DNA of 64,000 bases from Streptomyces celluloflavus (GTDB taxonomy: Bacteria; Actinomycetota; Actinomycetes; Streptomycetales; Streptomycetaceae), in the NCBI GenBank assembly GCA_000720995.1, contig JOEL01000013.1, forward strand, positions 124,001-188,000. Reading direction: 5' to 3'. Position 1 is the first letter of the stretch, and every line of letters begins with the position of its first letter. The translations under genes were made by a program, and so were the position numbers. Shown here in pieces: positions 18,310 to 25,107 of the stretch. Under the pieces are notes generated by a model that worked only from the letters and a program-made list of their open reading frames with translations, searched no databases and was not told where the DNA came from.

Positions 18310-18366
18310 TCCGGCGCGGGGCCGTACGGAGATCCGGCGGCGGAGCCGTACGGGGCGGCGGGAAGC

Positions 18367-18416
18367 TCAGAGCAAGCTCTGAACCCTGACGGCGCAGGAT
18401 TCGGCCCGTCTTGACA
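18367..18416 (+). promoter_or_regulatory. Inverted repeat and -35-like box upstream of MNIO operon
   Basis: TCAGAGC (18367-18373), AA, GCTCTGA (18376-18382) is a perfect 7-base inverted repeat, a likely regulator-binding site. A consensus TTGACA lies at 18411-18416, 43 bases before the ATG of the MNIO gene; no convincing -10 box is at the right distance. Confidence 0.4.
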
Positions 18417-18458
18417 GGGTCATGAGTACGTCACAGCACGGAGTGAACGGGGGGAACG

Positions 18459-19304
18459 ATGCAACGTCTCGGTACGGGTATCGGCTGGCGGCCGGAGATC
18501 GCCGCGGAGATCGCCGGACTGTCCGGTGTGGACTGGGTCGAGGTGGTGGCCGAGAACATCTGCCCCGGCCATCTCCCGCCCGCCTTGCGGGAGTTGCGCG
18601 AGCGGGGCACCACCGTCGTCCCGCACGGTGTCTCGCTCGGCCTCGGCGGCGCCGAACGGCCCGCCGAGGGCCGGCTGACCGCGCTCGCCGAACGCGCCGT
18701 GGCGCTGGACGCGCCGCTGGTCACCGAGCACATCGCGTTCGTCCGCGCCGGCGGGCCGGGCACCGGGTCGCCGCTGCTGGAGGCCGGGCATCTGCTGCCG
18801 GTGCCGCGTACCCTCGACGCGCTGGACGTGCTGTGCGAGAACGTCCGGATCGCCCAGGACGCGCTGCCGGTGCCGCTGGCCCTGGAGAACATCGCCGCCC
18901 TCCTCTCCTGGCCCGGTGAGGAGCTGACCGAGGGGCAGTTCCTGTCCGAACTCGTCGAGCGGACGGGCGTACGGCTGCTGATCGATGTCGCCAACCTCCA
19001 TACGAACCACGTCAACCAGGGTGAGGACCCGGCCGTCGCACTGGCCGAGCTGCCGGTCGAGGCCATCGCCTATGTCCATGTCGCGGGCGGGGTGGAGCGG
19101 GACGGGGTGTGGCACGACAGCCACGCCCACCCCGTGACCCGGCCGGTGCTGGACGTGCTCGCCGAGTTGTGCGCCCGGACCACCCCGCCCGGTGTGCTGC
19201 TGGAGCGCGACGAGGACTTCCCCGAGGGCGCGGAGCTGGCCGGTGAACTCGACGCGATACGTACCGTGGTGGAGGAGGCGCGCCATGGCCGACGAGCGGC
19301 CTGA
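18459..19304 (+). CDS. DUF692/UPF0276 multinuclear non-heme iron oxidative enzyme (MNIO)
   Basis: A 281-residue TIM-barrel protein of the DUF692 family, whose characterised members (MbnB, TglH and relatives) bind two or three irons and oxidise cysteines or other residues in ribosomal peptides. Candidate metal ligands are spread as in the family: [66 protein letters not shown] and LLERDEDFP. The ATG at 18459 follows GGGGGGAACG. The 3' end overlaps the next gene by 20 bases, and the third gene of the operon encodes a Cys-rich tail, so the enzyme very probably modifies that protein. The exact chemistry is unknown. Confidence 0.92.
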
Positions 19305-19839
19305 GGCGGTCACGGGGGCCGGTGGCGGTCCGGGGGGCGGGGACACGGCCGCGGCCGGTCCCGGCGTGCCCGCCCGCACGGTCCCCCCGTACCCCGTCGG
19401 TACCGATACCGATACCAGTACCGACGCGGCGCGGCAGCGGCTGGCGCTCGCGCAGACCGCGCTGCTGTCCGCGCTCGTCGCCGGGACGCCGGCCCCCGAG
19501 GGGTTCGACCGTCGCCGGCTGCGCGTCCAGAGCCGGGCGCTGGCCGCCAAGCGGGCCGCCGTCGTGGGCAGGATCGCCCCGGAGCTGCCCGCTATCCTCG
19601 GCGAGGAGTACCGGCCCGCCTTCCTCGACTACGCCCGCCACCGGCCCCTCCACGGCGGCCACCGGCAGGACGCGCTGGACTTCGCGGCGCATCTGCTGGC
19701 CCAGGAGCGTCCCGCGGATCCGGCCGCGCGGCGGCAGTTGACACGGTGGTGGCGGGACCGGGCGGGGCCGAAGCCGCCGCCCGCCCGCCCCGCCGCCCGA
19801 CTCGTGCGAGCCGTGCGGCTCGCCCTGCACCGAAGGTGA
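19285..19839 (+). CDS. MNIO-operon partner protein (SCO6045-like)
   Basis: A 184-residue soluble protein. Residues 1-50 are Gly/Thr/Asp-rich and probably disordered, followed by a helical domain (about 50-165) with [29 protein letters not shown] and [32 protein letters not shown], then a basic, Arg/Pro-rich end. It lies between and overlaps or nearly abuts its neighbours (20-base overlap upstream, 4-base gap downstream), so it is co-translated with the DUF692 enzyme. In other DUF692 systems a second small protein recognises the precursor or helps the enzyme; this protein occupies that position. Family assignment is from memory and position, not from a search. Confidence 0.75.
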
Positions 19840-19843
19840 CACC

Positions 19844-20872
19844 GTGTCCCTGGCACAATCGATGTATCTGGCAGTCATCCTCTCCTCGCTGGTGCTCGTC
19901 ATCGGTACGGTCCGCTCCCGCCGGGCACCGCGCATCCGGCTGGTGGACGCCCCCACCCACGATGTGTGGGAGATAGCGTTCCTGGCCGGCGGGCCGGGGC
20001 GGGTGACGGACGCCGCCATCGCCGGTATGCAGGAGGACGGCCGGCTGGCCGTCGGCGGCCCCGGCGCGGTGACCGTACGCCGGGCCGTCGCGCACCACCC
20101 CGTCGAGCAGGCCGTACTGGACGCGCTCGCCCGGACCCCCGGCGGGGCGCTGAGCAGGCTGCGCGGCATGGTGATGCGGAGCCCGGCGGTGCAGGAGATC
20201 GGCGACCGGCTGGCGGACCGCGGTCTGATGCGGCGCCCGCGGCGGGGCCGGGGCTGGCGCCGGATGGCCCACGTCCAGGTGGCGGCCTCCGCGGTGCTGC
20301 TCCTCGGCGGTCTGCTGATGACGATCACGGGGACCGCCGGGGACGACGCGTTCACGGTGCCGTTCGTGGTGCGGATCGCGCCCGCGGCCATCCTGGGCAT
20401 CGTCGTCGGCTCCCTCTGCAAGCTGGCCCACCGCAGCCGCCTCACCCCCGCGGGCACCCTCGCGCTCCGGGCCGCGCACGCGACCAACAGCCCCGGTGTC
20501 GTCGGCGGCGCCGTCCGGCCCGCCGCGATCGTGGTGGCGCTCGGCGGTGCGGCGCTGGTGGCCGACGCGGTGCTGCGACAGCAGCTGCTCGACGCGCAGT
20601 CCGCCATGGCGACCGCCGCCGGCGTGTCCGCCGCGTCGGGCGACACCGGCGCCTCGTCCACCACCACGTCCTCGGGCGACTCCGGCTGGGACTTCTCGGA
20701 CGGTGGATCGGACGTCTCCTGGTGCGGCTCCGCCGACGGCGGGTCCGGCTGCGGCAGCTCCGGGTGCGGCGGCAGCTCGGGATGCGGTGGCGGGTCCAGT
20801 TGCAGCAGTGGGTCGAGTTGCAGCGGCGGGTCCAGCTGCGGCTCGTCGTGCGGCAGTAGCAGCAGCGACTGA
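19844..20872 (+). CDS. TIGR04222-type membrane protein with Gly/Ser/Cys-rich C-terminal tail
   Basis: A 342-residue membrane protein. There is an N-terminal helix (about residues 6-22), a soluble domain (about 25-140), three more hydrophobic segments (about 148-166, 178-196 and 225-242), then a linker rich in Ser/Thr/Asp and a tail made almost only of Gly, Ser and Cys. The tail has eight cysteines at 294, 303, 308, 314, 320, 326, 332 and 336, many in SSC or SGC units; the rest of the protein has just one Cys. The GTG start is 4 bases after the preceding stop. As the only Cys-rich product beside the MNIO enzyme, its tail is the obvious modification substrate, delivered as a membrane-tethered domain rather than a free peptide. 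Confidence 0.85.
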   Translation: MSLAQSMYLAVILSSLVLVIGTVRSRRAPRIRLVDAPTHDVWEIAFLAGGPGRVTDAAIAGMQEDGRLAVGGPGAVTVRRAVAHHPVEQAVLDALARTPGGALSRLRGMVMRSPAVQEIGDRLADRGLMRRPRRGRGWRRMAHVQVAASAVLLLGGLLMTITGTAGDDAFTVPFVVRIAPAAILGIVVGSLCKLAHRSRLTPAGTLALRAAHATNSPGVVGGAVRPAAIVVALGGAALVADAVLRQQLLDAQSAMATAAGVSAASGDTGASSTTTSSGDSGWDFSDGGSDVSWCGSADGGSGCGSSGCGGSSGCGGGSSCSSGSSCSGGSSCGSSCGSSSSD

Positions 20873-21111
20873 CGTCACACACCGGTCGCCCGAAGGCACG
20901 CCGTCCGAACGGCGTTGCGTAGCCCGTGGCCTGACATGACGTCCGGGGTTTCGGGCGCGCTCCACTCTTCCGGGGCATAGCGTCCGACACCGGCGGCCGG
21001 TGCTTTACATCGGCAATCACCGCCCCAACTATCCCTTTTGTATGTACACCGTGCGGCCAGGCGCCCCGGGCCACTCGCGGTGCGCCAACGCACCATACGA
21101 AGGGACGGCTC

Positions 21112-22833
21112 GTGAGAGCACTCGCGTTGTACGGCACCATCGGGTCGCTGATCCTGACCGTCCTCACCACCGCACCGGCGGGCGGTGCCACCGCACCGTC
21201 CGCCGCGCCGCCCGCCCCCGTCCGCCCCATCGTCTTCGGCCGGTGCGCGGCGGTGGAACACCTGTCGTCCTCCGTCGAGTGCGGCAAGCTCACCGTGCCG
21301 CTCGACTACGACCGCCCCGACGGCAAGAAGATCAGCCTGACCGTCAGCCGCTCCCGCGCCACCTCCCCCGAGGAGCGGCAGGGCGCCCTGGTCTTCAACC
21401 CCGGCGGCCCCGGCGCGAGCAGCATGGAATTCCCGCTCTACGGCGCGCTCGCCAAGTGGCGCAAGACAGCCCGCTCCTATGACTTCGTCGGCTACGCGCC
21501 GCGCGGCGTCGGCCGTTCGGCGCCGCTCTCCTGCCAGGACCCGAAGAAGTTCGCCAAGAGCCCCACCGACAGTCCGCGGTACCCCGGCGAGGAGTACAAG
21601 CGCGAGAAGCTGGCGGAGGCCGAGGAGTACGCGCGCGGCTGCGCCCGCAACGCCGGCGCCGACCTGCCCTTCTACAACTCGGTCAACAACGCCCGCGACC
21701 TGGACATGCTGCGGGCCGCGCTGGGCGAGGAGAAGCTGACGTTCATGGGCGCGTCGTACGGCACGTACTTCGGTGCCCTCTACGCGACGCTCTTCCCCGG
21801 CCACGTCCGCCGGATGATCTTCGACAGTGTGGTCAACCCCGACCCCGACCACGTCTGGTACCGCAACAACCTCGACCAGAGCATCGCCTTCGAGCGGCGC
21901 TGGAACGACTGGGCCCGGTGGGTCGCCGCACACCATGCCGTCTACCGTCTCGGCACGACCGTGGCACAGGTGCGGCGCGCGTACGACACGGTCGCCGAGA
22001 AGCTCAGGCGGGCGCCCCTGAACGGCAAGATCGGCCCCGGCCAGCTTCAGGGGGCGTTCCTCAAGACCGGCTACAACGACGCCTACTGGCCGAGCCGCGC
22101 CGCGGCGCTCTCGGCGTATCTGCACGGTGACCCGCAGCCCCTGATCACCCAGGCGTCGCCGCATCCCGAGAACGCCAAGGCCGCGGAGAACGGCAACGCC
22201 GTCTACACCGCCGTCGAGTGCAATGACGCGGCCTGGCCGCGGGACTGGCGGACCTGGGACCGGGACAACACCGAGGCCGCGCGGCTGGCGCCGTTCGAGA
22301 CCTGGGACAACGTCTGGATGAACCTGCCGTGCGCCTTCTGGCCCGACCGGTCGGAGTCGGCCGCCGCCGGCATCGGCGCCGTGGCCGGCGAGGCGGCGGA
22401 CCGCGCCGCCGCGCGCGACGGGCGAGACGGGCACGACGCAGCCGCGGACGACGCCACCGGGGAGAAGCTGGCCGCGGCCGCCGGCCATGCCACCGCGACC
22501 GGTATCGACAGTGCGCTGAACCCGCGCCGCCCGCTCGACGTCCGTACCGCGCCCGGCGCGCTGCCCCCGGTGCTGCTGCTGGCCGCCGAGCGGGACGCGG
22601 CGACGCCGTACCCGGGTGCACTGGAGCTCCAGCGGCGGCTGCCCGGCGCCTCCCTGGTCACCGAGAACGGCGCGGGCACGCACGGCATCGCGTTCGGCGA
22701 CAACGACTGCGTGAACAGGTACGTCGAGGCGTATCTGCTGGACGGCAAGGTCCCCGGGGAGCGCGTGTACTGCGCGGCCCGCCCGGAGCCGGTGGCGGAC
22801 GCGCACGCGCAGCACAAGCCGAAGAAGCAGTAG
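21112..22833 (+). CDS. Secreted alpha/beta hydrolase, tripeptidyl-aminopeptidase family (S33)
   Basis: A 573-residue secreted hydrolase. A signal peptide (hydrophobic core about residues 5-24, cleavage near AGGA) is followed by the family core: LVFNPGGPGASS (oxyanion region), FVGYAPRGVGRSAPLSC, and the nucleophile elbow FMGASYGTYFGALYA with Ser near 223. The C-terminal TAP-like part carries PPVLLLAAERDAATPYPGAL (Asp) and ENGAGTHGIAFGDNDC (His). An Ala/Asp-rich insertion (about 405-460) is longer than in most relatives. These enzymes trim N-terminal tripeptides from extracellular proteins or hydrolyse esters. GTG start at 21112 with AAGGGA upstream. Confidence 0.88.
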   Translation: MRALALYGTIGSLILTVLTTAPAGGATAPSAAPPAPVRPIVFGRCAAVEHLSSSVECGKLTVPLDYDRPDGKKISLTVSRSRATSPEERQGALVFNPGGPGASSMEFPLYGALAKWRKTARSYDFVGYAPRGVGRSAPLSCQDPKKFAKSPTDSPRYPGEEYKREKLAEAEEYARGCARNAGADLPFYNSVNNARDLDMLRAALGEEKLTFMGASYGTYFGALYATLFPGHVRRMIFDSVVNPDPDHVWYRNNLDQSIAFERRWNDWARWVAAHHAVYRLGTTVAQVRRAYDTVAEKLRRAPLNGKIGPGQLQGAFLKTGYNDAYWPSRAAALSAYLHGDPQPLITQASPHPENAKAAENGNAVYTAVECNDAAWPRDWRTWDRDNTEAARLAPFETWDNVWMNLPCAFWPDRSESAAAGIGAVAGEAADRAAARDGRDGHDAAADDATGEKLAAAAGHATATGIDSALNPRRPLDVRTAPGALPPVLLLAAERDAATPYPGALELQRRLPGASLVTENGAGTHGIAFGDNDCVNRYVEAYLLDGKVPGERVYCAARPEPVADAHAQHKPKKQ

Positions 22834-22912: not shown

Positions 22913-23641
22913 TCAGGCCAGACCGGCGACCAGCTCGGCGACCGGCTTGCGGCGGCCGGTGTAGAAGGGGATCTCCTCGCGGACGTGCAGGCGCGCCTCG
23001 GAGGCGCGCAGATGACGCATCAGGTCGACGATGCGGTGCAGCTCATCGGCCTCGAACGCGAGGATCCACTCGTAGTCGCCGAGCGAGAACGCCGGCACGG
23101 TGTTGGCGCGCACGTCCGGGAAGCCGCGGGCCATCTTGCCGTGGTCGGCGAGCATCCGGCGACGGTCCTCGTCGGGCAGCAGGTACCAGTCGTAGGAGCG
23201 CACGAAGGGGTAGACGCTCACATAGGCGCGGGGGTTCTCGTCGGCCAGGAAGGCCGGGATGTGCGACTTGTTGAACTCGGCGGGGCGGTGCAGCGCCATG
23301 TTCGACCACACCGGCGCGAGGGCGCGGCCCAGGCGGGTGCGGCGGAAGAGGTTGTACGCCTCCTGAAGGGCGTCCGCGGTCTCCGCGTGCCACCAGATCA
23401 TCAGGTCGGCGTCGGCGCGCAGGCCGGACACGTCGTAGGTGCCGCGCACCACGACGTCCTTGGCGGCGAGCTGGTCGAACAGCTCCTCCACCTCGTCGGC
23501 GTAGCCGCTGCGGTCCTCCGGGAGGACGTCGCGCAGCCTGAACACGGACCAGAGGGTGTAGCGGATGACGTCGTTGAGGTCCTTCGCCTTCTTGCCGGCG
23601 TTCGGGATCTTCTCGGGTGCGGGGGCGGAAGCGTCTGTCAT
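22913..23641 (-). CDS. hemQ: HemQ, coproheme decarboxylase
   Basis: A 242-residue chlorite-dismutase-fold protein that converts coproheme III to heme b in the coproporphyrin-dependent pathway of Gram-positive bacteria. Conserved stretches are [53 protein letters not shown] (with the catalytic Tyr region), [19 protein letters not shown] (with the proximal His) and [21 protein letters not shown]. The ATG at 23641 gives MTDASAPA; an ATG three codons upstream is possible. It lies 11 bases after the hemG stop and forms an operon with it. Confidence 0.95.
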
Positions 23642-23652
23642 GTCATCCATTC

Positions 23653-25107
23653 TCACTCGCCGGGGGCGGTGGCCTGCGGCAGGGTGCCGAGGACCTCGTC
23701 GGCGGCCCGCTGTGCCGAGCCGATGCAGGCCGGGATGCCGACGCCGTCGTAGACCGCGCCGCACACCCGCAGGGCACCCGGCAGCTGCGCCACCGCGGTA
23801 CGGATCCGGGCGACCCGGTCCAGATGGCCGACGGTGTACTGCGGCAGACCGCCGTCCCAGCGGGTGACCGTGCTCGCCACCGGGCGCGCGGCCAGGCCCA
23901 CCGCCGCCCCGAGGTCGGCGAGCGAGAGGCCGACCAGCTCGGCGTCGTCGCGCCCGAGGTCGGCGGTGTCGCCGTAGCGCCCGAGGGAGGTGCGCAGGAC
24001 GAAGAGGTCCGGGCCGGCGTCGGCGAGCCAGCCCCATTTGTGGCTGGCGAACGTCGAAGCCTTGATCCGGTGCCCGTCGACGGGCGGTACGAGGAAGCCG
24101 CTGCCGCCGGGCACCCGGTCCAGGTCGGCGCGCCGGAAGGCCATCGTGACCAGCGCCATCGAGGCGTACTCGATGCCCGCCAGCTCGGCGGCGGCGGCCG
24201 GGGCGCCGTCGTGCAGCAGCCGGGCCGCGGCGCCCGCGGGGGCGGCCAGCACGACCGCGTCCGCCGTGAGAACGCGGTGGGCGCCCCGCTCCGTCACGCG
24301 CACCGCCCAGTGGTCGTCGCGCCAGGTCAGCTCGTCCACGGCGGTGCGGAGCAGGATCTCGCCGCCGGCGCCGCGCACGGTGTCGGCGACGGCGACCGGC
24401 AGCGTTCCGATGCCGCCGTCGAGGCCCGTGAAGACCGGTCCGCCGGGCGGCGTCGTGGCGGCGGTGCGCGCCTGGAGGGCCCGTACGCCCTGGAGCAGCG
24501 AGCGCTCGGTGCGGGCGGCGTCGAAGAGCTGGGGGACGGCGGCGCGCATCGAGATGCGGTAGGCGTCGCCTGCGTAGACGCCGCCGAGCAGCGGTTCCAC
24601 CAGCCGGTCGACGACCTCGCGGCCGAGCCGGGCCGCGACGTACTCGCCGACGGCGACGTCCTCGCCGGCCTCGGTCCGCGCCAGCGTCTCGTCCTCGGCG
24701 ATCCGGGCCAGACCGGCCGGGGAGAGCACACCGGAATCGGCGAGCGGGCCGAGATCGCCGGGGACGCCCATCACATGGCCCTTGGGCATGGGGCGCAGCG
24801 CGCCGCGGGTCCACAGGGCGGCGGTGGCCGTGGCGGGCGGCTGGAGCCGGTCGGCGAGCCCGACGGCGCGGGCGAGCCCCACCGCCTCCGGCCGCCTGGC
24901 CAGCATCGATTCGGCGCCAAGATCGACCGGTACGCCCGCGATATCGCCCGCGCGCAGTTTGCCGCCGATCCGGCCGGACGCCTCCAGCACGGTCACCCGG
25001 GCCCCGCCGTCGAGGAGGCGGTGGGCGGCCGCCAGCCCCGAGATGCCCCCACCGATGACGACGACATGACCGGGCGCCCGGCCCGTACTGGTGTGCGCTG
25101 CGCTCAT
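23653..25107 (-). CDS. hemG: HemG/CgoX, coproporphyrinogen III (protoporphyrinogen) oxidase
   Basis: A 484-residue FAD enzyme. The dinucleotide-binding motif [17 protein letters not shown] is at about residues 15-31, followed by [15 protein letters not shown]; the C-terminal FAD motif is [26 protein letters not shown]. It oxidises coproporphyrinogen III to coproporphyrin III in the pathway that ends with HemQ, whose gene follows directly. ATG at 25107. Divergent from the thiolase gene. hemE of the same pathway lies ~17 kb away, separated here by an accessory-looking block. Confidence 0.94.

Follow-up and report, generated by a model that had tools for sequence, protein, structure and literature searches.

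The operon described here, found within a stretch of 64,000 nucleotides from Streptomyces celluloflavus (contig JOEL01000013.1; the whole stretch is termed 'the window'), encodes an MNIO enzyme and a small partner protein that probably oxidise cysteines in the C-terminal tail of a TIGR04222 membrane protein before that tail is exported, leaving a tethered and perhaps metal-binding tail. In the mechanism envisaged, the MNIO would act in the cytosol, with the partner presenting the substrate, and would oxidise several of the tail cysteines, probably to a Cys-derived group known from the enzyme family; the tail would then cross the membrane and stay anchored on the outer side, modified at several sites and perhaps able to bind metal. 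Because we infer the MNIO to be cytosolic, the modification would have to precede export of the tail. The role of the tail as substrate is supported by two observations, developed below: Cys-bearing tails co-occur with MNIO enzymes, and they recur on another anchor beside the enzyme. To our knowledge, most of the established MNIO chemistry concerns small precursors (the substrates of methanobactin MbnB/MbnC and of TglH/TglI are small free precursor peptides), and we know of no function for the MNIOs of Streptomyces genomes. If the tail is modified at multiple sites on an integral membrane protein, MNIOs would be writers of cell-surface chemistry in widespread soil bacteria.

All three genes lie on the forward strand. 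The MNIO gene (DUF692, MbnB_TglH_ChrH; 18459..19304, 281 aa) matches PF05114 at 259.2 bits (E 4.9e-77), above the Pfam gathering cut-off of 25, and is followed by the gene for the partner protein (19285..19839, 184 aa, ATG start at 19285) and by that for the TIGR04222 membrane protein (19844..20872, 342 aa, GTG start), which scores 123.5 bits against TIGR04222.1, above the NCBIfam cut-off of 43. An earlier note on this DNA had placed the three genes as overlapping or 4 bases apart, and the open reading frame coordinates agree: the 3' end of the MNIO gene and the partner gene overlap by 20 nt, and 4 bases lie between the partner stop and the GTG start of the third gene. The start given in that note (18367) falls within an upstream leader element (18366-18383), outside the genes of the unit. 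In the genome containing the window (8.68 Mb), the single MNIO match and the single TIGR04222 match are both located in this operon, which, like the tight spacing of the genes, speaks for the reading proposed here. The interval that follows it (20873-21111) holds no tail-less TIGR04222 paralogue, unlike the corresponding position in close relatives, and an alpha/beta hydrolase gene (21112-22833) comes directly after.

In the MNIO, residues H56, H91, E143, D176, N179, H207, D220, H222 and E249 are among those invariant across 153 aligned rows, and 22 polar positions (picked from the window row itself) are more than 97% conserved in the same rows; the conserved His, Asp, Glu and Asn positions are putative iron ligands. 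The best NCBIfam match of the enzyme is BufB, at 174.3 bits and thus under the BufB cut-off of 310, with far lower scores against the ChrH model (35.7 bits, cut-off 600) and the MbnB model (30.7 bits, cut-off 325). Of 101 sampled genomes of the genus, 96 contain an MNIO match; in S. coelicolor the MNIO is presumably SCO6045. The partner is likely, judged from its sequence, to be of PME-type 2, a type marked by a fold like that of NGO1945 and by the lack of the DUF2063 Pfam signature. It scores 14.2 bits against DUF2063, below the cut-off of 27.2; seven of 36 partner rows match that family weakly (best E 8e-4); and hhalign comparisons with five DUF2063 partners of other MNIOs gave E values of 0.024 and 0.015 over the same stretch, at a probability of only 2-3%. 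Among PDB sequences the partner did not match NGO1945 at E values up to 10, and a profile search of the PDB returned no meaningful relative (best E 0.09). The same type of search with the TIGR04222 protein returned low-complexity matches only (best E 0.0017) and no meaningful relative, and neither protein found a match in PHROGs.

The TIGR04222 protein has four predicted transmembrane segments (hydrophobic stretches at about residues 1-25, 141-166, 169-196 and 219-246), followed by a hydrophilic Gly/Ser tail (residues 255-342; 20606..20869, forward strand) that comprises 31 Ser, 24 Gly and 8 Cys, with zero Lys or Arg. Of its positively charged residues, 22 occur in the loop at 23-144 and four in the loop at 194-226, with none in the loop at 164-173 or in the tail. 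Since these charges fall in the former two loops, the tail is predicted to lie outside, in a topology that is based on hydropathy and positive charges only. The protein contains nine cysteines, at residue 192 and, within the tail, at residues 294, 303, 308, 314, 320, 326, 332 and 336 (successive spacings of 9, 5, 6, 6, 6, 6 and 4); thus, the eight cysteines previously counted at residues 294-336, with one elsewhere, are indeed there, C192 being the lone exception. At an assumed Cys frequency of 0.8%, at least 8 Cys per 50 residues would occur with P ~7e-9, for a stretch that was picked after inspection.

The system had initially been considered 'undescribed', a description that has to be withdrawn: the operon belongs to a kind of gene set already described in 2025 (Antoine et al., PMC12452194). 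Passages of that paper report more than 3,500 TIGR04222 proteins, with unstructured C-terminal Ser/Gly regions that contain Cys and are predicted to be periplasmic, and propose that in subsets of them the Ser/Gly/Cys tail is the substrate of an MNIO assisted by a PME-type 2 partner; according to the same passages, more than 1/4 of TIGR04222 proteins are without C-proximal Cys, and 1/3 of TIGR04222 genomes are without an MNIO. Like the TIGR04222-MNIO clusters in those passages, the window combines an MNIO, a partner that is probably PME-type 2-like and a TIGR04222 protein with an extracytoplasmic Ser/Gly/Cys tail; the MNIO adjoins, the cysteines lie in a Ser/Gly tail predicted to be outside, and the gene order, with TIGR04222 after MNIO, is one reported there for more than 10% of cases. 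The passages drawn on here mention neither MNIO-partner fusions nor single-helix tails so named, and neither a common upstream element nor a Streptomyces clade without the tail.

Other MNIO systems resemble the window in part. The bufferins (BufB MNIO and DUF2063 partner) share with the window the MNIO family, the best NCBIfam match and a Cys-bearing product outside the cytosol; however, the window's MNIO and partner fall under the BufB and DUF2063 cut-offs, respectively, and the substrate proposed here is a protein of the membrane, not a signal-peptide precursor. A preprint (PMC12636315) describes, in the part considered, an MNIO subfamily (that of ChrH) which modifies a C-terminal motif of proteins of more than 30 kDa, a precedent for the reading proposed here. 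The resemblance lies in an enzyme that acts at the C-terminus of proteins that otherwise differ, some of them above 30 kDa or lipid-anchored to the membrane, whereas the subfamily is another one and the motif there is CPxCxMG, in contrast to the Gly/Ser/Cys repeat seen here. MbnB/MbnC (methanobactin) and TglH/TglI likewise constitute enzyme-partner pairs that act on peptide Cys, according to a portion of PMC10214503. In the parts of two further sources, a TIGR04222 peptide is mentioned in a Pseudonocardia cluster (PMC5183585) and S. coelicolor SCO6045 is among the genes tabulated in an RNA-seq study concerned with a redox sensor (PMC4991794); TIGR04222 is not mentioned in PMC12668002.

The association between tail and enzyme was followed through a class-wide sample of 345 genomes, in which TIGR04222 matches at or above cut-off occurred in 91 and PF05114 matches in 81 (the TIGR04222 search was limited to the top 8 candidates of each genome and to a shortened list of weak matches, so that it may have missed weak members). 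Regions were taken around 115 over-cut-off TIGR04222 places in 90 genomes, among the matches listed and with the window's own excluded; adjacency was based on 77 full or near-full MNIO matches, to the exclusion of weaker ones; and a Cys tail was defined as three or more Cys among the 60 C-terminal residues together with an end rich in Gly, Ser, Cys, Asp and His. Outside the genus, 39 of 77 TIGR04222 genes had an MNIO no more than 3 kb away, and all but two of the 39 (37) encoded a Cys tail. Among the other 38 genes, seven had a Cys tail, nine a Gly-rich tail with fewer Cys, and 22 neither. Counted by genome (n = 64, outside the genus), 38 had both an MNIO and a Cys tail, 21 had neither, three had an MNIO only and two a tail only (Fisher p 1e-11 for co-occurrence, with the relatedness of the genomes ignored).

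Several of the discordant cases have features of their own. Five of the seven Cys-tail genes distant from an MNIO occur in genomes with an MNIO elsewhere; the others are in G079, where a 38-bit partial MNIO lies in the same region, and in G183, where the scored 'tail' is not a true Gly/Ser/Cys tail. The MNIO of G232 comes from another, high-scoring group, five sampled partners of which (that of G232 itself not being one of the five) match DUF2063, and in G181 the MNIO adjoins a Gly tail without Cys. In G038 (locus L084) the reading frame of the Cys tail extends through sequence that resembles the partner, a pattern that the loss of an intervening MNIO would give; by eye, this looks like a decayed operon. 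The five Cys-tail genes that lie apart from the MNIO of their genome count against the tail as substrate. So do genomes outside the genus that have an MNIO and no TIGR04222 match above cut-off. There are ten of these among 51, and inspection covered six of the ten (all except G020, G078, G251 and G305): tails on short stubs were seen in G122, G276 and G292 and a Cys-rich frame end in G284, G237 shows no tail, and G291 belongs to another MNIO group.

A second anchor for such tails was found at six MNIO loci, all from a single other family, that have no adjoining TIGR04222 match (L114, L116, L117, L119, L120 and L121). These loci encode peptides of 60-127 aa (from the longest start) in which a single hydrophobic helix is joined to a Gly/His/Cys tail with 2-9 Cys, and which are placed between the MNIO and the partner; one per locus starts before the MNIO stop, and L117 has a second. 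In three of the six genomes (G111, G198 and G324) there is, in addition, a TIGR04222 gene with a Cys tail at an unlinked site. By separating tail from scaffold, these peptides favour the tail as the substrate, with the enzyme being tracked by the tail and not by its anchor. They may overlap the small 'adjamnio-V' proteins that appear in passages of Antoine et al. (PMC12452194).

Within the genus the association is looser: of 28 TIGR04222 genes beside an MNIO in the class sample (window excluded), 11 encode a Cys tail and the other 17 lack one. The reason emerges from these genes taken together with 80 named loci, the top 80 among 560 relatives and hence biased to close kin. Close relatives such as S. 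natalensis, S. lydicus and S. noursei have an MNIO, a separate partner, a Cys-tail TIGR04222 protein and then a tail-less TIGR04222 paralogue. In a tree of 154 rows (built by a quick method, with at least two genomes represented twice), 62 MNIO rows form a Streptomyces clade (SH-aLRT 95) that shows no Cys tail at the locus, and a Cys-tail gene is present at none of the 57 clade loci that have at least 1.5 kb of downstream sequence. S. himalayensis (L189), the sister of this clade, retains the tail, which suggests a single loss. In 60 of the 62 clade rows the MNIO and partner form one reading frame, the other two ending at a contig edge; such fusions are also found outside the genus, together with Cys tails (for example at L012, L031 and L062), so that fusion alone does not imply tail loss. 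In the downstream sequence of these 57 loci, a tail-less TIGR04222 paralogue occurs 47 times and a DUF4142-type gene 36 times (72 bits for a single representative), and five loci have neither. At L026, the gene for a DUF4142 protein with a Pro-rich end (L026:4926-5708) separates the fused MNIO-partner gene from that of the tail-less paralogue.

The enzyme is maintained in this clade. The 22 conserved polar positions are retained in 68 of 68 fused rows without a Cys tail, 60 of them in the clade (one of the eight non-clade rows, the non-Streptomyces locus L018, does carry a tail), and dN/dS has a median of 0.145 in 25 fused loci without a Cys tail, sampled from the named loci, versus 0.188 in 25 Cys-tail loci. 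With active-site positions intact and dN/dS low where the tail is absent, the MNIO of this clade is kept for a purpose other than a linked Cys tail, and the tail cannot be the sole substrate of this enzyme group. Loss of the tail cysteines with retention of the enzyme, which the earlier note had named as evidence against its proposal, is therefore the situation in this clade and not in the window. That proposal, with the tail as MNIO substrate, gains from the co-occurrence and the stub-anchored tails and is restricted by the tail-less clade; beside the enzyme, a Cys tail occurs in 37 of 39 TIGR04222 proteins outside the genus and in 11 of 28 within it.

Two possible replacements for the missing tail were considered and discarded. 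A Cys-rich one-helix peptide at the locus had a sole match in the 68 fused no-Cys rows, at L018, which had been mislabelled by the threshold. Supply of a tail from an unlinked TIGR04222 gene fails as a full answer: candidates are found at 14 of 24 sites of the element described next, and they encode 0-7 Cys.

A conserved leader element precedes the MNIO gene in most of the genus. It consists of CTCAAATN4CTCTGAA, 5' of the MNIO start, followed at about fixed spacing by GGNTTC and GGGGCCAT. Exact copies of CTCAAATN4CTCTGAA occur at 106 sites in 82 of 101 genus genomes (a reversed control gave zero), 82 of them 78-264 nt upstream of the MNIO domain and 24 elsewhere, as a second, unlinked site in 24 genomes. 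Directly downstream of 14 of these second sites (including G101 and, by coordinates, G377) is an unlinked TIGR04222-like gene, with a Cys count of 0-7 in the 13 reading frames viewed; no such gene was found at the other ten (E 1e-3), most of which keep the same leader, by eye. The exact element is missing before the MNIO in ten of 92 MNIO-listed genus genomes, and the window is a further case: it has a diverged copy (18366..18383, forward strand; 2 mismatches to CTCAAATNNNNCTCTGAA), after which GGATTCGG and GGGTCATGA resemble the conserved downstream blocks. Because two other element sites and three control matches occur in the window genome at the same tolerance of 2 mismatches, this assignment rests on the position of the copy. 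A search of Rfam with five leader loci gave one sub-threshold match, away from the leader, and the element, in three spellings, was not found in the literature searched.

The tail-less clade constitutes a natural test of what the MNIO acts upon, and a tentative account can be given of it, one that we hold to be possible and somewhat doubtful: the Gly/Ser/Cys tail would be a portable MNIO substrate, carried on TIGR04222 or on a one-helix anchor, and in one large Streptomyces lineage the MNIO, now fused to its partner, would have been redirected to a substrate without the tail, with the ancestral promoter element retained. On this account a single genus would allow the steps of fusion, loss of the tail and retargeting to be traced. 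It is rather unlikely, by comparison, that the tail is left unmodified, as plain thiols, disulphides or a metal-thiolate brush on the outside, while the MNIO modifies an unlinked substrate and the same stress response keeps both. Retention of the enzyme in a clade with no linked tail would fit, as would the joining of the MNIO operon and an unlinked TIGR04222-like gene by the leader element in 14 genomes, which suggests co-regulation in the absence of physical linkage; however, Cys tails go with MNIO presence outside the genus, and they recur on another anchor beside the enzyme.

A further alternative, improbable in our estimation, is that the ancestral Streptomyces substrate was the CxxxC of the tail-less TIGR04222 paralogue (or the adjoining DUF4142 protein), with the Cys tail as a second substrate or none. 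This motif, at the end of the first helix, occurs in 65 of 74 tail-less paralogues scored (for example L026:5814-6608) and in none of 36 Cys-tailed proteins, and the two genes are frequent at tail-less loci, as described above. Against it stand the window genome, which has no such paralogue, the five tail-less loci with neither gene, and the lack of Cys in 33 of the 36 downstream DUF4142-type proteins of the tail-less clade.

Compared with these possibilities, the modification of the tail by the adjoining MNIO remains the preferred reading. The DNA of the tail contains just three short imperfect arrays (period 15-18 bp, 77-86% matches), and Ser and Gly codons are mixed along it, so that recent slippage alone is a poor explanation. 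That the tail is a low-complexity spacer whose cysteines are functionless by-products of repeat drift is highly improbable, for although those repeats are present and the family includes Gly-rich tails with fewer than 3 Cys (the nine genes distant from an MNIO), the listed Cys-tail Streptomyces loci mostly have 6-11 tail Cys (with exceptions such as L069, with 5), the codons are mixed, and a Trp-Cys pair containing the first tail Cys is unchanged throughout the 23 aligned rows (the window and 22 relatives selected for having a Cys tail).

Near the operon, on the minus strand (22916-25107), lie a chlorite-dismutase-family gene and an amine-oxidase-family gene, which may correspond to HemQ and HemY.
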